From Faecalibacter sp. LW9 (GTDB taxonomy: Bacteria; Bacteroidota; Bacteroidia; Flavobacteriales; Weeksellaceae), in the NCBI RefSeq assembly GCF_034661295.1, contig NZ_CP141062.1, forward strand, positions 3,038,001 to 3,102,000: 64,000 nt of DNA, given 5' to 3'. Position 1 is the first letter of the stretch. Each line of letters starts with the position of its first letter. A model generated the notes under the pieces. The model had not been told where the DNA came from and made no database searches. It saw only the letters and a list, made by a program, of their open reading frames with translations. A program made the translations under genes and the position numbers. Positions 33,888 through 55,492 of the stretch are shown here, in pieces.

Positions 33888-34613
33888 TTAATCGATTTTC
33901 GTCTCCATTTTTTGATGCTCCACTTCCTCACATCTCTTTTTATGCGCATCCACAATGGCATTAAATTCCTGCTGAGAAATGATTTTTCCTTTGGTCGGTT
34001 TCGCTAATTTTAAATCAGGGACGATTGAAATTTTATCCGCACTAAATGTTCGTTTATGCCTTGATTTATTATGATTAAAATAATGCGTGAATTTAACAAT
34101 CAATCCTGGTAATTCGACGTATCCGTTTGGTCCAAAATTTAGTGGCAAGGAAGGAACAAACCAAGCTTCATATTCTAAATAATCATTCTTATAAGTTGCT
34201 TTTCGGGTTTCATAGCCCAGATGCCTTCCTCTTTCCCGTTCGATCTTCCACTCTACTACATTAACTGAATCTTTGATGATGTATTTCCCGTAATAGTTTA
34301 CCTCATCTAATCGTTCTCTCGTTTGAAGATTAAAATAACTCTTTCCAATTGGTCCTGAAATAGCAGGTTTATTCTTTTCTTGTGCATTATCGACACGAGG
34401 AACATCCACAAACACTGCTTCATGGTTATCGATGGATAAGGTATAGTAAAAAATCTTTTCGTTTGAATTCTGGTACAAATTCAGCGTATGTGCATCGGTT
34501 ACATTAGAGGTATCAAATGTGTTACGGTAGCTGTATTCTACAACTATTTTATCTTGTGCAACAACCAAAATTGTCACAAAATACATTAGACATGAGAATA
34601 GTATTTTCATCAT
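33888..34613 (-). CDS. GLPGLI family protein
   Basis: Secreted 241-residue protein: a signal peptide of about 19 residues, then two beta-rich halves. The family motif is ELPGLIVKFTHYF, preceded by the LGYETRKATYKNDYLEYEAWFVPSLPLNFGP-type segment in which LG, A-W and GP are fixed. The end, PTKGKIISQQEF, is the family tail. GLPGLI proteins are known only as conserved secreted Bacteroidota proteins. This is one of six in the window, and the last of five in a row; the spacing to the next gene is 15 bases. Confidence 0.88.
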   Translation of the reverse strand: MMKILFSCLMYFVTILVVAQDKIVVEYSYRNTFDTSNVTDAHTLNLYQNSNEKIFYYTLSIDNHEAVFVDVPRVDNAQEKNKPAISGPIGKSYFNLQTRERLDEVNYYGKYIIKDSVNVVEWKIERERGRHLGYETRKATYKNDYLEYEAWFVPSLPLNFGPNGYVELPGLIVKFTHYFNHNKSRHKRTFSADKISIVPDLKLAKPTKGKIISQQEFNAIVDAHKKRCEEVEHQKMETKID

Positions 34614-34628
34614 TCTAATTGTTATTTT

Positions 34629-35384
34629 CTAATTCGTATCAACACCTTCGGGATTCATTTCTTCCATTCGTTCCCAATATTTTTTCATATTCGATTTGTA
34701 TGTTTCAAGATTAACAATTTCTCCTTTTGACGGTTTTTTAATCTGCTTATTATTTTTCAATTCCTTTATATTTACTGCTAAATATTTTACACGCAAATTA
34801 ATCTCATTATTAAAATAATATTCTAATTCTAATATCAAACCTGGTAATCCTACGAAAATATCCGGACCAGAAGAAAATGGAATTTTAGTCGCATACCAAG
34901 CTATAACATTTCTATCTCCATTTACAACTGCTGTTGCTTTACGAACTTCGAAACCTAAAATTGTCTTCTTTTCTCGTGTTAATTGCCAATCTATTTTCTG
35001 AATCGAATCTTTAATAATTTGATCATATCCAAAACCAACCGATTCGTGCATATAATAATTACTGACTAAATCTTTGTAATAAACTCCGTTGCCCGTGTCA
35101 TCGAAAATACTCATCGATGAAGCACCATTCAAAATTGGCTTTTCTATATAAATAGAAGCTCGTTTATCTGTAACTAAAAGATAAGGTTTGGCTTTCGCCA
35201 TTTCGTCTTGAAAATATTTTATCAGTTGTTGTTCATTTAAATCAACATCGTTAATCGTAACCTTCTGATTTTTTACCTTTTCCGCATCAAATAATCGGTA
35301 ACGATCATATTCCACTTCTACAGTTTCTTGAGCAAAAGATAATATCGAAAGTGTAAATAATAATATGTTTAATTTTAATTTCAA
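34629..35384 (-). CDS. GLPGLI family protein
   Basis: The 251-residue product has a signal peptide (MKLKLNILLFTLSILSFAQ), the body ILGFEVRKATAVVNGDRNVI-like, the segment WYATKIPFSSGPDIFVGLPG and the motif GLPGLILELEYYF. The tail, KKPSKGEIVNLETYK, matches its neighbours. Compared with them it has a few extra residues after the signal. Function unknown. Its stop lies 15 bases before the next gene in the cluster. Confidence 0.9.
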   Translation of the reverse strand: MKLKLNILLFTLSILSFAQETVEVEYDRYRLFDAEKVKNQKVTINDVDLNEQQLIKYFQDEMAKAKPYLLVTDKRASIYIEKPILNGASSMSIFDDTGNGVYYKDLVSNYYMHESVGFGYDQIIKDSIQKIDWQLTREKKTILGFEVRKATAVVNGDRNVIAWYATKIPFSSGPDIFVGLPGLILELEYYFNNEINLRVKYLAVNIKELKNNKQIKKPSKGEIVNLETYKSNMKKYWERMEEMNPEGVDTN

Positions 35385-35529: not shown

Positions 35530-36261
35530 TTAATCAATCTTAGTCTCGACTTTGTTATTTTCCATTTCATCGTATTTACGATTCTCTTCTTCAATAATTT
35601 GACTAAATTCTTTTTCCGAAACGATTTTGCCTTTTGTAGGTTTTTCGATTTTCGCCTTCGGATCAATTCTAATTTCTCTTGCATGATAAATACGTTTATT
35701 CTCTCCTCTTTCGCTCGATACTAAGATTTCAAGTTTTAAGATTAATCCTGGAAGTCCACCAAATTCGATTGGTCCATTTTTAATAGGTAATTTTGGTGCA
35801 TACCAAGCGGTAAAAATTGTATTATTATCTTTATAAAAAGCTTTTTTAATATCATAACCTAAAAATTTATCTTTCTCTTTTTGTATTACCCAAGGTTGTA
35901 CTTTTAGAGAATCTTTTATGATTAATTTTAAACCATTATAATTCATAAAGGTTAGGGATTCATTTTCTTTTAAATTTTTATAAAAATCATCTCCAGCACC
36001 TCCAAACGAAATTGTAGCTCCAGTCTTTCCTTGTGAGTTATCGATACGTTCTATTTTTTTGTAGATCGATTCATCAGCAGTTGTTACCAATTCAAAGTAA
36101 GAACGTTTCTCATTACTATTTTTATAGATTTCGAGCATTTTTGGATTGGTTTCCTTTGATAAATCAAAGACATTGTAAAATTCATATTCTACCACCACTT
36201 TCTCTTGAGCAGTAGAAACTATTGATGTTGCAAGTAAAACAACAAATAGGATTTTTTTCAT
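35530..36261 (-). CDS. GLPGLI family protein
   Basis: A 243-residue secreted protein: signal peptide to about residue 18, LGYDIKKAFYKDNNTIFTAW, then LPIKNGPIEFGGLPGLILKLE. The tail reads IEKPTKGKIVSEKEFSQ. Its start codon is about 20 bases downstream of a tetranucleotide repeat (36281-36303). The gap before the next gene (35385-35529, 145 bases) shows no feature, so this may be a separate transcription step. Confidence 0.9.
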   Translation of the reverse strand: MKKILFVVLLATSIVSTAQEKVVVEYEFYNVFDLSKETNPKMLEIYKNSNEKRSYFELVTTADESIYKKIERIDNSQGKTGATISFGGAGDDFYKNLKENESLTFMNYNGLKLIIKDSLKVQPWVIQKEKDKFLGYDIKKAFYKDNNTIFTAWYAPKLPIKNGPIEFGGLPGLILKLEILVSSERGENKRIYHAREIRIDPKAKIEKPTKGKIVSEKEFSQIIEEENRKYDEMENNKVETKID

Positions 36262-36312: not shown

Positions 36313-37035
36313 TTAATCAATCTTTCTAATCACCCGATTATTCAATCGCTCTTGTTGTTTTTGCAACATTTCTTCCATAAATGCTTCATAACCTTCTTTC
36401 GAAATCACTTCTCCTTTGGTCGGCTTATTAATCTTCGCTTTATCGTTTATTTTGACTTCCAAGGCTTTTGTAATTTTTTGATGTCCTTGCGCATCCGTTT
36501 CTGTCAATTGAAGAATAACACCTGGTAATCCATTAAAACTAAACGGTCCACTTTTAAAGTTCAATTTTGGCGCAAACCAAGCTTCATAAATTAATTTACC
36601 ACGAGTAGCAGTGGCTAACTTTACATCATAACCTAAAAGTTTAGTCTTTTCTTTTTGTATCACCCAATTGTAAGTTGGCAAAGAATCGGTTACAATAAAA
36701 CTCTTACTTATCATATCTTTTAATTCAACAATTTCATTTGTAGAATAATTTAAATAATACGAATTTCTTGGTGGTAACATTGAACCTCCACCTCTTGCTT
36801 TATTTTGTTGATTGTTTAACTTTTCAATGGGTGAAAAAGTAGCTTCCGTTTTCGACGTGATTAAAGTGTATTCCCCTTTATTTTCATTAGTCGCTTTATA
36901 AAAATCTAACATCGAAGCCTTATCTGCTTTACTTAAATCAAACGCATATTCAAACTCATATTTAATTTCTAGTTTTTCTTGTGCAAATAGAAAGGCAGAA
37001 GATACCATTAAAATTGCGGTAAGTGTATTTTTCAT
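36313..37035 (-). CDS. GLPGLI family protein
   Basis: A 240-residue secreted protein with a signal peptide ending near residue 18 (FLFAQ). It shows LLGYDVKLATATRGKLIYEAW, then LNFKSGPFSFNGLPGVILQLTE, the family motif with Val in place of Leu, and the tail INKPTKGEVISKEGYEAF. It is 51 bases upstream of the 35530-36261 gene and 6 bases downstream of the 37042-37764 gene, so this part is an operon. Function unknown. Confidence 0.9.
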   Translation of the reverse strand: MKNTLTAILMVSSAFLFAQEKLEIKYEFEYAFDLSKADKASMLDFYKATNENKGEYTLITSKTEATFSPIEKLNNQQNKARGGGSMLPPRNSYYLNYSTNEIVELKDMISKSFIVTDSLPTYNWVIQKEKTKLLGYDVKLATATRGKLIYEAWFAPKLNFKSGPFSFNGLPGVILQLTETDAQGHQKITKALEVKINDKAKINKPTKGEVISKEGYEAFMEEMLQKQQERLNNRVIRKID

Positions 37036-37041
37036 TTTTTT

Positions 37042-37764
37042 TTAGTTTTTACTGATTCCTACATCTTCAGATAAACGACGCTCGTATTCCTTTTCGATCG
37101 CTTTAAATTCTTGTGCTGATATTTCTTTACCTTTGAATAAGGAATTTAAATTTTGATCATCTTTTAACTCAATGGATGTTGCATTCAGCGTAAAACGAGG
37201 TTCATCCTCCTCTTTATACGTAGAAACCACTTTTAAAACTAAACCGGGCAAATTCGTATAAGTAGATGGCCCAAATTTTGAAGGTAAGGCTGGAGCATAC
37301 CATACTTCTGTCTTCATTGCTTCAAAATTGATTATTGCTTTTTTGACTTCATACCCTAACATCATCCCTTTTTCTCGTGTTAATTCATAATGATGTGTCA
37401 CAATAGTATCCGTTACGATGTATTTTTTATGATTAACCTCCCACTCCCTTTTTGAAAGATTTTGATTGAAATCTAATAATAAATTTCGTGCGAAAATTCC
37501 ACTCGCATATACAACTTTCAAACCCTGCGAATTGTCAATGGGATCAATTTTTGAATAAAAACTTTGTTGATCTTTTATCTTTAATTCATAAAATGTTGGA
37601 CGAGCAAGCGCTTGTTTTAATTGTGCATCAATTTGGGCACCTCCAGAACCTTCAGATTTTGGAAAGGTTGGAATTGAAACTTGTTCGTATTGAATTGTAA
37701 TTCCGCTTTGGGCGAATGCAAATTGAAAGAGCAGTAAGAATGTAAAAGTTATATTTATTTTCAT
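37042..37764 (-). CDS. GLPGLI family protein, first gene of the cluster
   Basis: The 240-residue protein has a signal peptide to about residue 18 (FAFAQ), the segment MLGYEVKKAIINFEAMKTEVWYAP, and the motif TNLPGLVLKVV. Only eight bases separate its start codon from the left end of the IS1182-like remnant at 37773. Its native promoter has therefore been lost or replaced by the island, and the whole five-gene cluster may now depend on sequences inside the remnant. Confidence 0.88.
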   Translation of the reverse strand: MKINITFTFLLLFQFAFAQSGITIQYEQVSIPTFPKSEGSGGAQIDAQLKQALARPTFYELKIKDQQSFYSKIDPIDNSQGLKVVYASGIFARNLLLDFNQNLSKREWEVNHKKYIVTDTIVTHHYELTREKGMMLGYEVKKAIINFEAMKTEVWYAPALPSKFGPSTYTNLPGLVLKVVSTYKEEDEPRFTLNATSIELKDDQNLNSLFKGKEISAQEFKAIEKEYERRLSEDVGISKN

Positions 37765-37772
37765 CTATCCTT

Positions 37773-38638
37773 TGTGCTTGTTGCACAACTAGAATAACGT
37801 AAAATTTCTTAACTTGTTATCATGCAAGGCAAAAAAGAATTTACACCCCAATTATTTTACGATTTAAATTTAGATCGATTGGTACCTTTTGATAATTACT
37901 ACCGAACAATACAGCGAGAATTATCATTTGATTTTCTTTATCAAGCGACAGCTAAATATTATGGAAAAGAAGGTCAAAAAAGTATTGATCCTGTGGTCTT
38001 TTTCAAGATATTATTGGTGGGTTATCTCAACAACATCAACAGTGATCGGGCATTGATTCGCTACTGTAGCAATTGTTTAGATGTACGTTTATTTTTAGGC
38101 TATGATTTAAATGAAGATTTACCTTGGCACTCAACCATTAGCCGAACACGTCAATTATTAGGAGAAGAAGTTTTTTTAGAATTGTTTCGTCAAGTGTTAA
38201 GTCTTTGCGTTAAAAAAGGAATGGTTCAAGGTCGTCGTCAAGCGGTTGATAGTGCATTTATCAAGGCTAATGCCAGCATGGATAGTTTAGTTGAAAAAGA
38301 AGTGTTAGAGGATGCATCGGCTTATGTCAACGAATTAGAAGAAAATAGTGAATATAAAGTCACTTCAACACGTAAAAAGTTAGTTGAGCAACACCATAAT
38401 GCAAATTCCTGAAATTTACGCCTAAAAAGTCCAAATTACTAGCCCAAATCTGTGCCTTACCAAAGGTAAAGTATGCTATTTTTAAAATAGGTGAATTTGA
38501 CTTTAAAATCCGCTTTGTAGAACCACTTTATTTTTAACTCATTTGCATTTTAACCCAAAATAAACCTCGTTTAAAAAGGCTTAAACGAGGTCATATATGA
38601 TTTTATTTTGTTGAGTTTTGAGTTGTGCAACGGTTACC
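37773..38638. mobile_element. IS1182-like element remnant 1
   Basis: The left end TGTGCTTGTTGCACAACT and the right end AGTTGTGCAACGGTTACC form an imperfect inverted repeat sharing GTTGCACAACT. The same ends occur in the second remnant (47300-47792). The internal transposase gene is deleted in the middle, so the remnant cannot move alone. Together the two remnants bound the 10-kb accessory island. Confidence 0.8.
37822..38537 (+). pseudogene. IS1182-family transposase, internally deleted
   Basis: The first 196 residues are intact: MQGKKEFTPQLFYDLNLDRL, the DUF772-type N-terminal domain (SIDPVVFFKILLVGYLNNINSDRALIRYC, about 51-79) and the start of the catalytic domain (RRQAVDSAFIKANASMDSL, about 132-150, with the first Asp). 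After EQHHNANS the frame stops and resumes out of frame with FTPKKSKLLAQICALPK and FVEPLYF, the C-terminus. The central catalytic part is deleted, so the product cannot be active. Confidence 0.85.
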
Positions 38639-39702: not shown

Positions 39703-40650
39703 TTAATTCTCAACAATTGTTAAATTATTGTATATTGAATTTGTTCCTGAAAGAGTTAGGTCAAAGGGCTTAGGTCCGTAAGGATTAAGATCTATCCATA
39801 ATGCTGGTCTAATGCTTTGTCCTGCTTCTAAGTAAACAATTGCTGTACAATTGGATCCTGCTTTTGCATTTCCTGTATTGTCGTTCCAAGCATACCTGCT
39901 ATCCGAAGGAAATGCATTGGCACACTTTACCGAATTTATTTCAACATTGCTTGCATTGTACACTCTCCAAATAGCTTCTATTTGGTTAGTATCAACAGGG
40001 TTTTCGTAACCATTCCATGCTCTGATAATACCGTCTGCTAAAGCAAAAGTAAAAGTAGCTGTAAAAGTTCCGGCTCTGTTTGCTGTGAAAATCCCGGTTG
40101 AGGCATCAAAACTCCCACCATCTGTGGTGGTAATATATTTCTGTGTCCAATTTGTGAGATAAGCAGAAGTTCTGTGTGGAGCTCCTGTAACATTACAATT
40201 GGAGCAACCATGTCCTCCTGTCTCATAAGCATAAGTATCACTATTTGTTTTGGTTGCAATAACAACAGTTTTTGCAGGGCTTTCTGTTAAAAGATTCACC
40301 CAATGTGTACCATTAGAATACTGTAGAGAAGAACCATTGTATCTTATGGCTCCTTTTTCTGCTTCAGTGGCGGTAAGATTTGTATCTCCTATTCCTAAAG
40401 CATTGTTGACAGAATTATTCCTGATATCTAGTTTTACCTTTGGTGCATTGGTACCTACTCCAATATCTCCCGTTGTATGTTTCACAATAAAGTCATCTGA
40501 TAACTGGTTTAAAGTAGCTCCTGTTTCAGGTGTATTCTTTTTAGAATCAATGTGAAATATTCCTTGAGGTTTTTCGGTATTGACACCAACCCCATTCTGA
40601 GCTTTTGATAATATTGATATGCTCAATAGTATTATAAAAATATATTTCAT
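39703..40650 (-). CDS. Secreted protein with C1q-like C-terminal domain (copy 1)
   Basis: A signal peptide (IILLSISILSKAQ) is followed by GVGVNTEKPQGIFHIDSKKN, which opens a family of surface proteins in flavobacteria; next comes GDIGVGTNAPKVKLDIRN, a short stalk, and a jelly-roll head (about residues 150-310) with FDASTGIFTANRAGTFTATFTFALADG, typical of C1q/TNF-like domains. Probably trimeric. It is the last and longest of three tandem paralogues, 10 bases from the next gene. Possible roles are adhesion or surface display. Confidence 0.75.
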   Translation of the reverse strand: MKYIFIILLSISILSKAQNGVGVNTEKPQGIFHIDSKKNTPETGATLNQLSDDFIVKHTTGDIGVGTNAPKVKLDIRNNSVNNALGIGDTNLTATEAEKGAIRYNGSSLQYSNGTHWVNLLTESPAKTVVIATKTNSDTYAYETGGHGCSNCNVTGAPHRTSAYLTNWTQKYITTTDGGSFDASTGIFTANRAGTFTATFTFALADGIIRAWNGYENPVDTNQIEAIWRVYNASNVEINSVKCANAFPSDSRYAWNDNTGNAKAGSNCTAIVYLEAGQSIRPALWIDLNPYGPKPFDLTLSGTNSIYNNLTIVEN

Positions 40651-40660
40651 ATTATTTAAA

Positions 40661-41488
40661 TTATAATTGTGTTATTGTTAAGGTATTAAGACTGCTATCG
40701 GCAGCTAAATTTCTTGCAGAACCAAAGTTGTGTCTGAATCCCGTACTGATGGTATTGCCTGTCTGAAGATAAAAGATAGCCGTACAATTATTCCCGGATG
40801 TGTTAGTAGCTGACCCGGTAGTATAGCCGGGATATGAATTAACACAACGAAACTGAGGAACTCCAGTTGTAGTGTTTGATTGTACAATCGTTTCTGTATA
40901 ACTGTTGTTTGGAATACTACCAGATTGTGTTGCAAGGTTCACAGAAACAATATATACACCGTCTCTAGGAGCTGTAAATACACCTGTAGTAGGGTCAAAA
41001 CTATCCGTTTGATCCGTATTTTCAACCCAATTTATAATGGTGGTTCCAGTGGTACCGCCAGAGTTTATGGATTGTGCTGTATTCTTTGTAGCATACACCA
41101 ATGCTTTATCAGGAACAACCGGCAAAAACACCCAACTGCTTCCGTTTGAATAGCTTAATCCCCAATTACTTCCACTTTCGTGATATTGTACGGCTCCTGC
41201 ACCAGCTGATGATGCCGACTGATTTGTAACACCGATACCAATGATATTTTCGTTTGATGCATTTCTAAGATCAACCTTAGTAATGGGAGCTATATTTCCT
41301 GCACCTAATTTCCCTTGAGAAGTAACGACCACGTCATCATTATTTCTATTATCTGCCGGAGCCGTTGCATTATTGGCAGCTGCATCTATATGTAATATTT
41401 GCTGAGGGTTGTCAGTGCCGATTCCTACTTGACTGAAAGTAATACCAGGAATCAGAATTGAAACCGCTATGGATATAAAGTATTTCAT
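40661..41488 (-). CDS. Secreted protein with C1q-like C-terminal domain (copy 2)
   Basis: The 275-residue protein has a signal peptide ending near ITFSQ, then VGIGTDNPQQILHIDAAANN, a stalk with a KVDLRNASNENIIGIGV segment, and the head FDPTTGVFTAPRDGVYIVSVNLATQSG. It ends in LAADSSLNTLTITQL, near the ends of copies 1 and 3. The head has two cysteines (FRCVNSYPG and GNNCTAIFY) that may form a disulfide. The lengths of the stalks differ between the copies. Confidence 0.75.
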   Translation of the reverse strand: MKYFISIAVSILIPGITFSQVGIGTDNPQQILHIDAAANNATAPADNRNNDDVVVTSQGKLGAGNIAPITKVDLRNASNENIIGIGVTNQSASSAGAGAVQYHESGSNWGLSYSNGSSWVFLPVVPDKALVYATKNTAQSINSGGTTGTTIINWVENTDQTDSFDPTTGVFTAPRDGVYIVSVNLATQSGSIPNNSYTETIVQSNTTTGVPQFRCVNSYPGYTTGSATNTSGNNCTAIFYLQTGNTISTGFRHNFGSARNLAADSSLNTLTITQL

Positions 41489-41498
41489 AATTTTTGTT

Positions 41499-42353
41499 TT
41501 ATTGTTCTACAATGGTAAGATTATTAAAACCAAAAAATGGATTGGTAACTGTTGTGGAAGAACGTAAACCTCTCCCTCCTGAAGTCGTATTATCTATTAG
41601 CTGTAAAAGCCGTGCATTTATCGTCTCACCTTCTTCAAGAAAAATACTGGAAACACAGTTTCCTGCAGATTGAGCTGGACGTGTTGATTTTCCATAGGTT
41701 TTCAGGCATTTTATAGCAACTGTATTTCCATTTTTAATGATTTGGGATTCAACGGAACTGTTTGCCAATATGGGCCCGTTTACAAAATTAAATGTAAAAC
41801 TTACAGTATATATCCCATCTCTTGGAGCGGTAAAGATTCCTGTAACGGGATCAAAGCTTGATGTTGGATCATACATTTCTTCCCAGCCGGTAACATTTTT
41901 CACTACATTGTAAGTGAATTTTTGTGTGTTGTTAGCTTCATTGATCCTCGCTACTATATTAGCCTTAGTAGGAACTGATGCTATGTTTTCCCACGTGATT
42001 CCGTTAGATACCTGTATTCGACCTCCTGATTGATCTATATAACGAATGGCCCCTGCTCCTGCATCTGAGGCTGATTTTGTCGTACCACTAATACCAATGG
42101 CATTATTCGTATCACTGGAAGCTCGCAAATCTAATCTTACTTTAGGTGAAATGGTTCCCAAACCTATATTTCCATCTTCTGTAATGACAAAATCATCTGA
42201 TTGTTCTGAATTGGAAGGAGTTCCTATAGCGGGATTATTCTTTGATCCGTCTATGTGGAACATTGCTTGCGGATTCTCTGTATTGATGCCGACTTGAGAA
42301 TAGAGCAATGTAGAACATGCCAATGCTCCGATAATTAAAATATTTTTTTTCAT
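41499..42353 (-). CDS. Secreted protein with C1q-like C-terminal domain (copy 3)
   Basis: The 284-residue product has a signal ending LACSTLLYSQ, then VGINTENPQAMFHIDGSKNN, a stalk with VRLDLRASSDTNNAIGIS, and a C1q-like head (FDPVTGIFTAPRDGIYTVSFTFNFVNG). It is the first gene of the tandem operon; the spacing to the second is 10 bases and the second to the third is 10. Cys pairs as in copy 2 (IKCLKTYG, AGNCVSSIF). Confidence 0.75.
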   Translation of the reverse strand: MKKNILIIGALACSTLLYSQVGINTENPQAMFHIDGSKNNPAIGTPSNSEQSDDFVITEDGNIGLGTISPKVRLDLRASSDTNNAIGISGTTKSASDAGAGAIRYIDQSGGRIQVSNGITWENIASVPTKANIVARINEANNTQKFTYNVVKNVTGWEEMYDPTSSFDPVTGIFTAPRDGIYTVSFTFNFVNGPILANSSVESQIIKNGNTVAIKCLKTYGKSTRPAQSAGNCVSSIFLEEGETINARLLQLIDNTTSGGRGLRSSTTVTNPFFGFNNLTIVEQ

Positions 42354-45709: not shown

Positions 45710-46686
45710 ATGAATGAAAAAATCAACTATTGTGGTATTGATGTATCAAATGAAACGTTAGATCTTTATTTTAAAAATAAGGAAGGAATAGAACAACATT
45801 TACAAGTTTCCAATACGTTAACTGGATTTAGAAAACTTCTAAAAGAAGCAGGAAATAATACACATTTCGTAATGGAAGCAACAGGAGTTTATCATTTGAA
45901 TTTAATATTCTTTTTGAATGAAAAAAATGTTGTTTTAGTGTTGTAAATGCGCTTCAAATCAAGCGTTATATTCAGATGCATTTAGAACGTAATAAATCGG
46001 ATAAAAAAGATGCGAAAAGGATTTATGAATATGGCTGTGATCGTGAACCAGAAAAATACACAATGCCCGATTCATCGTACTTTGAATGTCGCTCGTTAAA
46101 TAATTCGATCCATGATTTAACCAAGGAAATCACAAAATTTAGTAATCAAATTCATAGTCTAAAGAAGTGTCCATTTAATGCAAAAAAGATAGAAAAAAGC
46201 TTCCTTAAGATCATCAAATTATTAAAAGAAGAGAAGTCGAAATTAGAGCTTGAATTGCATACCAAATTGGTAGAATGGGATGAAGAAACACTCCACTTAA
46301 TAAGCAGTGTGAAAGGAATAGGAAAGCGATCAGCAGCAGAATTAATGGTTTATACGCAAAGTTTTAAAGACATGGAATCGTATAAACAATTAATCTCTTA
46401 TGCAGGATTAAGTCCGACCGAATATCGAAGTGGAAGTAGTATTCGAGGTCGAGTACGAATATGTAAACAAGGAGGTAAACAACTAAGAAATATGTTGTAT
46501 ATGTGTGCCTTGAATGCTAAGAAAAGTAATGGTTATTGTCGTGCATTATATGATCGATTAGTAGAAAAAGGAAAAAACAAAAAAGCAGCGTTAATCGCAG
46601 TGTGCAATAAGCTGCTTAAATTAGTATTTGGAGTGGTAAAAAATAAAACATTTTACCATGAAAATTTTGTTGTAAAAATTGATTAA
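45710..46686 (+). pseudogene. IS110-family transposase with one frameshift
   Basis: The N-terminal DEDD domain is present (GIDVS, Asp11; MEATG, Glu56; RNKSDKKDAKRI), and the C-terminal Transposase_20 domain holds VKGIGKRSAAELMVY, ISYAGLSPTEYRSGSS (catalytic Ser region) and GKQLRNMLY. The frame breaks near 45936-45941 (VVLVL then stop); one added base restores LSVVNALQIKRYIQMHLERN, the conserved link. As it stands no full protein is made, unless programmed slippage occurs. Confidence 0.88.
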
Positions 46687-47904: not shown

Positions 47905-48651
47905 TTATTTTATATCTACTCCACCACTAAAAGATTCTAACATCTTTTTTCGAGATTCGTCTTGTAATTTTTTAAATTCCTCTTGTGATATTTCTGGCGA
48001 AGTAAAGGGTTTAATTTTAGTGAACTTTTTAGGATTTTTATTGATCTTTTCTGCCGTAAAATTCATAATTAATCCCATTTTACCGCCCATTTCAGACGCT
48101 GATTTTAAAACTAACCCAGGAAGTCCATTAATCTGATTAGGTCCAGCGTTAATTGGTAAATCTGGTGCATACCATGCTGCAACTTTATTTCCGTTTATTT
48201 CTCCAACTGCTTTAATTACTTTATATCCCAAAATTGTATCTTCAATATCCGTTATTTTCCAATTATAGTTTTTATAAGGTGTTACTACGGTATATTTTTT
48301 TCCATCTAATACGACTTCTTGCTTAAATTTTTGTTCAGTAATGGTAGATGTCGTATTTTTAAACTCTCCTCCTACATGAATAGAAAAACCACCGCCTCCT
48401 GCACCTTGGTTATTGTTCACCGATTCGATTTTATCGTAATTTAAAAGATTTTGATTAACCTCTAATTGATAAAAGATCTTCGGCATTTCCATAGAACCGA
48501 TATTTATACCTTTTTGTGCTAATTCGGCATTAAATTGCTTTTGCTTCTCTTCGTCATATTCATTAACTTGACGATATTCCACAATAATTTTATCTTGTGC
48601 ATTAAGTAAAGCTGTAGCTGAAAATAGAGCTGTGAATAATAATTTCTTCAT
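47905..48651 (-). CDS. GLPGLI family protein (sixth copy)
   Basis: The 248-residue secreted protein has a signal peptide ending near residue 18 (ALLNAQ), the segment LGYKVIKAVGEINGNKVAAWYAPDLP, and the motif NGLPGLVLKSASEMGG. The tail, IKPFTSPEISQEEFKKLQ, is more divergent than that of the five copies to the left. It is separated from them by the 10-kb island, so it was probably once their neighbour. Function unknown. Confidence 0.9.
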   Translation of the reverse strand: MKKLLFTALFSATALLNAQDKIIVEYRQVNEYDEEKQKQFNAELAQKGINIGSMEMPKIFYQLEVNQNLLNYDKIESVNNNQGAGGGGFSIHVGGEFKNTTSTITEQKFKQEVVLDGKKYTVVTPYKNYNWKITDIEDTILGYKVIKAVGEINGNKVAAWYAPDLPINAGPNQINGLPGLVLKSASEMGGKMGLIMNFTAEKINKNPKKFTKIKPFTSPEISQEEFKKLQDESRKKMLESFSGGVDIK

Positions 48652-53809: not shown

Positions 53810-55492
53810 ATGAAGCCGATATTTTCATTTTTTATTTTCTTAATCGTACACTTGCCCTTAATTGCACAAGAAACTTATCAAATTACCTATGAAAAACTAA
53901 GTAATCATAAAAAAGTAACCGATTCAAATCCAATCCGTGTTATTGCTAATGCGGAAGAAACAGTCATCGGTACTGAAAATTCATTTGTTTCTGATCGTTT
54001 CTATCCCAATGAAATTCATTATTATCACGGTCAAGAACCTGAATTGATTTATTCCATTATGGAATTAGAAGAGAATCGAGTGCTAAAAACGGTTGATTCA
54101 ATAGGATTTCAAAAAATAGTATTTAAAAAATTAAATCAAACCAAACGAATTTTAGGTCTACGCGCAAAACATGCTCAAATCATTATTAATTCGAATACTA
54201 TTGACTTGTGGTATGTCGATCATTTAGGAATACATGCTTCACCTGTACCTTTAGGATTAAAATTAGGATTTGTTTTAGAATATACGCGTAATAATAATTA
54301 TACCATACGCGCTTCAAAAATTGAGTATCTTAATCAAGTACAACCCTCCGGATTCTACCAAAAACATTTGGCTTTAGATCCTTTAGACCCACTTACTTAT
54401 TCCCATTTGGTTTGGAAAAATAAATTCAAAACAATTCCACTCTTAGCCCGACAACAAATACATTATGACCCGCAATCCAATGTTGCTTCTAATAACGATT
54501 CTATCTTTCGATATGCCCATGGAACAGTAGTTGTTCGCAAAGTGAAAATGCCCTATATCGATCACGGTTCACAATTGTTTTTGGATGTTACGCAAGTTTC
54601 AAATGGAGATGCCTATGACCGAACAGGCTCGGTGTTTATTATTCCTCAACGCTCAAAAACCAATTTAAAAGATGCGCTTGAGAAGGGATTGAATATTTTA
54701 CCCGTCTATGAAAATGGAAATGGAAAAAAATACCAAGGTGTCGTTTTAACGAAAGATTACGAACCTGTAATTGAATTGATGCGGTTTTTCACCCCCTTTG
54801 GTATTGGTCAATTTAATCACGTTCAGTTGAAAGATAAAACATGGCATCTCGAAAATCCATACCGCCAAGATATCTCAGAGTTTCGAGATTTATTATCGGA
54901 CCAAGAGGTATATATTGGATTCTTTATTGGAAATTATGACCAAGGCGGCCATATGATCGATGCTAATTTAACCATCCATAATTCCGAAAAGCAATTGTTT
55001 TCAAATGGTAAATCCTTAGCTTTATTTAACACCTTAAATGTGATGGAAATGGCTGGACAAGAATATCCAACCCTGTTCAATTCTGATCGTGGAATTCACC
55101 TTGAATTTGAGTTAAAAGAAGATTGGAAAAATGCCAAATTACGATTAATTACTACTGGTCATGGGGGTTGGGGAAATGGAGATGAATTTGTTCCAAAATT
55201 AAATTCGGTGTTTTTCGACGATAAATTGGTCTTTTCATTAACGCCATGGCGTCAAGATTGTGGATCCTATCGTTTATATAATCCTGCCTCAGGAAATTTT
55301 GACAATGGATTATCTTCATCCGATTATTCCCGATCAAATTGGTGTCCAGGTACAGTCACTACGCCCTATTTTATCCAATTAGGGGATTTAAAGGCAGGAA
55401 AACACACGGTACAAGTCAAAATTCCTCAAGGTGAACCCGAAGGAAATAGTTTTAGTTCTTGGGCCTTATCAGGAGTTTTGTTAGGAGAATAA
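53810..55492 (+). CDS. Secreted peptide-N-glycosidase F (PNGF-II-like)
   Basis: The product (560 residues) has a signal peptide to residue 20 (LPLIAQ). The two C-terminal jelly-roll domains of PNGase F follow from about residue 230: GDAYDRTGSVF (266-276), TGHGGWGNGDEFVPK, PWRQDCGSYRLYNP, SRSNWCPGTVTTPY and FSSWALSGVLLGE. The enzyme releases intact N-glycans from glycoproteins. The N-terminal 200 residues are absent from the classical PNGase F and match the larger type with an N-terminal bowl-like domain. It acts outside the cell. Confidence 0.92.
   Translation: MKPIFSFFIFLIVHLPLIAQETYQITYEKLSNHKKVTDSNPIRVIANAEETVIGTENSFVSDRFYPNEIHYYHGQEPELIYSIMELEENRVLKTVDSIGFQKIVFKKLNQTKRILGLRAKHAQIIINSNTIDLWYVDHLGIHASPVPLGLKLGFVLEYTRNNNYTIRASKIEYLNQVQPSGFYQKHLALDPLDPLTYSHLVWKNKFKTIPLLARQQIHYDPQSNVASNNDSIFRYAHGTVVVRKVKMPYIDHGSQLFLDVTQVSNGDAYDRTGSVFIIPQRSKTNLKDALEKGLNILPVYENGNGKKYQGVVLTKDYEPVIELMRFFTPFGIGQFNHVQLKDKTWHLENPYRQDISEFRDLLSDQEVYIGFFIGNYDQGGHMIDANLTIHNSEKQLFSNGKSLALFNTLNVMEMAGQEYPTLFNSDRGIHLEFELKEDWKNAKLRLITTGHGGWGNGDEFVPKLNSVFFDDKLVFSLTPWRQDCGSYRLYNPASGNFDNGLSSSDYSRSNWCPGTVTTPYFIQLGDLKAGKHTVQVKIPQGEPEGNSFSSWALSGVLLGE

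Follow-up and report, generated by a model that had tools for sequence, protein, structure and literature searches.

What is the N-terminal bowl-like domain (NBL) of type II PNGases, and where does it come from? The question is raised by a stretch of 64,000 nucleotides from Faecalibacter sp. LW9 (contig NZ_CP141062.1, positions 3,038,001 to 3,102,000; hereafter the window), which carries a PNGF-II-like type II PNGase F as a full open reading frame (ORF) of 560 amino acids (53810-55492, + strand) together with six genes for GLPGLI proteins. The NBL was described in 2022 as being of 'unique structure and unknown function' and 'unique to these two proteins', with GLPGLI unmentioned (PMC9522356), and its role was given as unknown in 2025 (PMC12381499). 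An earlier reading of the window from its letters alone (the sequence-only reading) had proposed that the domain may be a GLPGLI domain fused to the enzyme, giving a hint to the role of GLPGLI proteins. Profile and structure evidence upholds the fusion with the qualification that the domain forms a divergent clade without the GLP of the family name; by these comparisons, the NBL of type II PNGases is almost certainly a divergent GLPGLI domain. The two 'unknown' labels, that of the NBL and that of GLPGLI, thus become one question.

In the window PNGase, the NBL occupies residues 25-197 (53882-54400, + strand), as marked by the NBL-GLPGLI profile match and by PF22252, a Pfam model built for this PNGase domain (E 1.9e-40, 138.8 bits, cut-off 27.6). 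The extent proposed earlier, 53810-54500, reaches beyond the domain on both sides, into the signal peptide and into the beginning of the catalytic portion. The strings on which the proposal was based are all present in the order claimed: ITYEKLS (residues 25-31), ILGLRAKHAQIII (114-126), IDLWYVDHLGIHASPVPLGL (131-150) and KLGFVLEYT (151-159) in the PNGase, and VEYRQVN, ILGYKVIKAVGEI, AAWYAPDLPINAGP and GLPGLVLKS in the GLPGLI ORF at 47905-48651 (- strand). The resemblance goes beyond chance, with single-pair BLASTP of the PNGase against two window GLPGLI proteins giving E-values of 2e-5 and 1e-5 at about 30% identity over 60-76 residues. The NCBIfam model TIGR01200 matches the window PNGase weakly (18.4 bits against a cut-off of 50, E 0.0014), which leaves it outside the family in the sense of that model. 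In the other direction, PF22252 matches five of the six window GLPGLI proteins, four of them above the curated cut-off, and 13 places besides the PNGase in the whole genome, every one a GLPGLI gene, while 14 control genomes gave no PF22252 match. Across 395 Bacteroidota genomes, its scores grade almost without a gap from PNGases (lowest 60 bits) into stand-alone GLPGLI proteins of 240-300 amino acids (from 54 bits).

The profile-profile check suggested by the sequence-only reading used two separate alignments, one of 47 GLPGLI proteins and one of NBLs taken from 18 Bacteroidota PNGases. The two profiles matched in hhalign both locally (probability 98.6, P 1.4e-15, score 103) and globally over 182 columns (probability 99.1, P 7e-18), that is, with P values on the order of 1e-15 to 1e-17, and the match was not weakened when the window sequence was omitted. 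The controls were clean: 100 column-shuffled GLPGLI profiles scored at most 16 and a reversed one 15, and when GLPGLI was compared with the catalytic domain of the PNGases the score was 13.5. Moreover, a hidden Markov model of NBLs only, run against 664 ORFs, picked up almost every GLPGLI protein, the strongest at 1e-11, with no reversed decoy better than E 0.78. A profile of nine GLPGLI proteins, all from the window and Faecalibacter, found PNGF-II (4e-13, residues 46-171) and 7zgn (2e-5) among all PDB chains, with nothing unrelated below 0.1 and the next unrelated chain at 0.1. At the level of profile homology over the conserved core, the window NBL thus falls within a broadly defined GLPGLI superfamily.

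The core common to both groups, as seen in 109 aligned sequences, consists of a first-strand Tyr (Y26/Y27), E/D followed by T-K, I-L-G-Y-x-C-x-K-A, W-Y, an invariant Pro (P174/P145) and G-L-(I/V)-L. The motif that gives the family its name is absent from the window NBL, which reads GLKLGFVL at this place; the NBL consensus retains G-L-V-L, not GLP. Therefore, TIGR01200 fails to call the NBL, and because the GLP is absent, the NBL is to be seen as a divergent clade and not as a typical GLPGLI protein. The NBLs have invariant positions of their own (I114, L115, S128, N129, I131, W134, P145, V155, L156, N161, N163 and A168). The Cys of ILGYxCxKA is found in 17 of the 18 NBLs and is replaced by Ala in the window copy. 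A disulphide was considered for this residue and rejected, as it is the only Cys in those 17 NBLs and has no partner column.

The comparison of predicted structures points in the same direction. An AlphaFold2 model of the window GLPGLI protein at 34629-35384, built from a nine-row alignment, reached pLDDT 79 and pTM 0.75. In a Foldseek search of the whole PDB with this model, the six top places all went to chains from 7zgn, 4r4x and 4r4z, at E-values of 4.5e-8 to 4e-7 and a TMq of about 0.5. On this one model, with the fold of the window NBL taken from its solved relatives, GLPGLI and the NBL appear to have the same fold; the profile match was found and the folds did not differ, contrary to the outcome named beforehand as telling against the idea. 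The next PDB matches were LolA, VioE, an ependymin-related protein, RseB, Porphyromonas gingivalis LolB and LprG, a weak group obtained from the one model (E about 7e-5 to 1e-2, TM 0.3-0.4), and a viral structure library gave no match below 1e-3. A LolA-like fold common to GLPGLI and the NBL is therefore suggested by the model as probable. Because these folds follow the NBL enzymes among the matches, the 'bowl' seems to be an open barrel of the LolA/LolB/RseB type and not a unique structure, at weaker scores than those of the step from GLPGLI to the NBL.

The history of the domain might be read from trees. A quick tree built from 91 GLPGLI domains and 18 NBLs places the NBLs in a single clade (SH-aLRT 95), which groups with one part of the GLPGLI diversity (91, inside a branch of 99); the NBLs are nested within GLPGLI if the root lies outside that part, the tree having no outgroup root. 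A careful tree of the catalytic domain separates NBL-bearing from NBL-less enzymes with support of 100/100 and is consistent with those groups of the NBL tree that are well supported. Because the NBLs are monophyletic and the two trees agree, the simplest history is one fusion early in the type II enzymes, followed by joint inheritance of the NBL and the catalytic module. The NBL was retained in all 19 enzymes of the clade that were examined. It has a lower mean identity than the catalytic part (0.40 versus 0.58) and is the less conserved of the two in 169 of 171 pairs, the window NBL being especially diverged on a very long branch. As well, another kind of GLPGLI fusion was seen in a protein of 474 amino acids (L173:4836-6257, genome G359 of the same class), in which a GLPGLI/NBL-like domain (PF22252, 27.9 bits) precedes six WG repeats (PF14903).

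The gene neighbourhood of stand-alone GLPGLI proteins, which bear export signals and were present in 94 of 296 Bacteroidota genomes sampled (about a third), offers a hint to their role. Sixty GLPGLI loci (L082-L141) from diverse Bacteroidota genomes were compared, taken from the best-scoring matches and biased to typical members. One recurrent neighbour cluster of about 900 amino acids occurs in 51 of them. At 49 loci a full-length copy adjoins GLPGLI in the same orientation, with gaps of less than 60 bp in 36 of the 49. This neighbour carries CarboxypepD_reg and often OMP_b-brl_3, some members having weak Plug or TonB-receptor barrel matches, and is by these predicted domains a beta-barrel outer-membrane protein (OMP) of the TonB-receptor type. 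A reverse search from the OMP considered its 30 best matches, each from a different genome; 19 of them have a GLPGLI gene within 1.5 kb, in every case on the strand of the OMP gene. Three of the four best OMP copies in Faecalibacter sp. LW9 abut GLPGLI genes, and one GLPGLI-OMP pair of this genome lies at 1396312-1402220. Within the 60 loci, GLPGLI copies often stand in tandem, up to seven in L123.

Two more clusters, of about 227 and 513 amino acids, lie close by in 11 of the 60 loci (L084, L086, L087, L121-L124, L126, L127, L137 and others). They are probably a histidine kinase / response regulator pair and possibly regulate the nearby GLPGLI-OMP pair, as judged from L172, where two genes that match them in size and order, beside such an OMP gene, encode these two kinds of protein. 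GLPGLI genes have been reported to be under PhoP control in Riemerella (PMC9603813) and under PG0720 control in Porphyromonas (PMC8757827).

From fold and neighbourhood, it may be proposed that the GLPGLI bowl serves at the outer membrane as a small module for binding and docking, working with a beta-barrel partner and holding either a peptide or hydrophobic ligand or some portion of the barrel protein. The NBL of the PNGase would then have no part in catalysis and would act as an accessory, keeping the enzyme at the outer membrane or orienting it there. Removal of the NBL from PNGF-II left activity and specificity unchanged (PMC9522356), which supports an accessory role, as does the lower identity of the NBL than of the catalytic part. 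The hint to the role of GLPGLI proteins expected by the sequence-only reading thus comes from the fold and the stand-alone neighbourhoods, and less from the fusion, given that removal changed no activity. The whole chain of divergent GLPGLI fusion, bowl fold and outer-membrane holding or docking module has about an even chance of being right, and the docking or holding role taken singly is tentative, leaning to the doubtful side. A wider picture is possible and rather unlikely in its full form: GLPGLI proteins would be a large class, so far unrecognised, of bowl proteins akin to LolA, many of them with their own carboxypeptidase-regulatory/beta-barrel OMP, and the type II PNGase would have captured one of the bowls as a docking module, by which a secreted enzyme that releases glycans is tied to a complex in the outer membrane.

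Several observations weigh against the docking proposal. The GLPGLI-NBL fold match comes from one mid-confidence model (pLDDT 79; TM 0.5 and root-mean-square deviation 6-7 A to PNGF-II), and the LolA/RseB matches of that model are weak (TM 0.3-0.4). The putative GLPGLI-OMP link is drawn from gene neighbourhood; in Faecalibacter sp. LW9, the OMP neighbour stands at just six of the 18 GLPGLI genes (three of ten loci), and such an OMP gene adjoins none of the six GLPGLI genes of the window nor the PNGase. In addition, the activity of the family may have been lost in the NBL along with the GLP.

This loss of the GLP is also what would be expected if the NBL, homologous to GLPGLI as it is, were now a structural appendage only, serving solubility, folding or spacing with no binding role, its fast change reflecting relaxed constraint. 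The unaffected activity and specificity of PNGF-II after deletion (PMC9522356) fit a dispensable appendage equally as well as an accessory role, and the rate difference between NBL and catalytic part, together with the very long branch and lost conserved Cys of the window copy, speaks for it. However, the domain persists in 19 of 19 enzymes with its own invariant positions (the set from I114 to A168), and because these conserved positions persist, pure decay is unlikely; the appendage is a lesser but appreciable possibility. LolA/RseB-like bowls bind hydrophobic or peptide ligands, and by analogy, through the fold match of the GLPGLI model, the NBL might instead be a substrate-handling module whose bowl grips glycoproteins that are denatured or hydrophobic by their peptide portion, close to the active site. 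Deletion left activity unchanged in the reported assays (PMC9522356), which makes substrate handling improbable. Convergence or chance likeness between unrelated beta proteins, to which the low pairwise identity and the sub-threshold TIGR01200 score might be taken to point, was rejected: reciprocal profile matches, shuffles, reversed decoys, the PDB search and the structure search concur against it, and it retains next to no probability. Holding or docking at the outer membrane by a divergent GLPGLI domain is the preferred reading.

The PNGase as a whole has the make-up of a type II PNGase (PNGF-II), with PF22252, N-glycanase_N and N-glycanase_C all matched. Residues 21-560 align to the solved PNGF-II (PDB 4r4z/4r4x) with an E-value of 5e-175, and residues 1-20 (53810-53869, + strand; ...LIAQ|ETY) are a putative signal peptide, called from the sequence pattern and lying ahead of the start of that alignment. 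The two halves of the catalytic domain are N-glycanase_N (PF09112, 54431-54976, + strand; E 5.8e-57, 192.7 bits) and N-glycanase_C (PF09113, 55061-55480, + strand; E 1.8e-52, 177.3 bits). Type II PNGases cleave N-glycans with core alpha-1,3-fucose, and the window enzyme may do likewise, given its alignment to PNGF-II. The genes beside the PNGase in some genomes are consistent with glycan foraging: SusC/SusD-type genes in L189, a GH18 enzyme in L185, and a sugar transporter together with an alpha-L-fucosidase in L191; such neighbours were not seen in the window.

The Faecalibacter sp. LW9 genome has 18 GLPGLI copies over the cut-off, of which the window holds five in tandem and a sixth apart, all on the - strand. 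The tandem paralogues, strongly diverged, lie at 33888-34613 (241 amino acids, TIGR01200 110.4 bits), 34629-35384 (the modelled protein; 251, 130.3 bits, PF22252 37.9 bits), 35530-36261 (243, 132.1 bits), 36313-37035 (240, 140.7 bits) and 37042-37764 (240, 96.1 bits), and the sixth, at 47905-48651, has 248 amino acids (114.9 bits; PF22252 36.4 bits, cut-off 27.6). The nearest named relative of the locus that was found is Faecalibacter rhinopitheci (Weeksellaceae), the sole match in a genome-contig scan with one GLPGLI protein, and the PNGase and GLPGLI genes are likewise neighbours there. In that species (L081), counterparts of two tandem genes directly adjoin the counterpart of 47905-48651; compared with this arrangement, the two groups of the window seem to have been separated by the arrival of some 10 kb that contains fragments of transposase genes. 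Transposase genes or fragments of the DUF772 and IS110/IS116 types are found between them at 37822-38412 and 45976-46686. Three related tandem exported proteins of 275-315 amino acids, alike at both ends, are encoded at 39703-42353, and the one of them that was tested had no Pfam match.

The union of the NBL with GLPGLI gives the GLPGLI family crystal structures at once, and the NBL need no longer be viewed as confined to two proteins; the recurrent OMP neighbour is a concrete candidate partner for GLPGLI. Users of the enzyme gain an explanation for the presence of a dispensable domain on a useful PNGase. In databases, the link is already recorded by half: PDB 7ZGN bears the molecule name 'Glpgli family protein', and GLPGLI proteins score above the cut-off of PF22252. 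The link was not found stated in the literature searched, outside which the original PNGF-II structure paper or another subscription paper may say more.

Among known systems, PNGF-II of Elizabethkingia meningoseptica (PDB 4r4x, 4r4z) has the same NBL and two catalytic halves as the window PNGase, whose NBL is far more diverged (identity about 0.33 to nearer relatives) than its own catalytic part (about 0.60). The B035DRAFT_03341 PNGase of Bacteroides massiliensis (PDB 7zgn) likewise combines an NBL with a catalytic domain. The GLPGLI family (TIGR01200; Pfam Porph_ging, PF09697) has in common with the NBL the core ILGYxCxKA...WY...P...GL(I/V)L and the overall fold, whereas the NBL has no GLP, scores below the TIGR01200 cut-off and is fused to an enzyme. 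Bowl proteins of the LolA/LolB/RseB type stand farther off: in the PDB ranking of the GLPGLI model they come next after the NBL enzymes, but at low TM (0.3-0.4) and an identity of about 10% or less.
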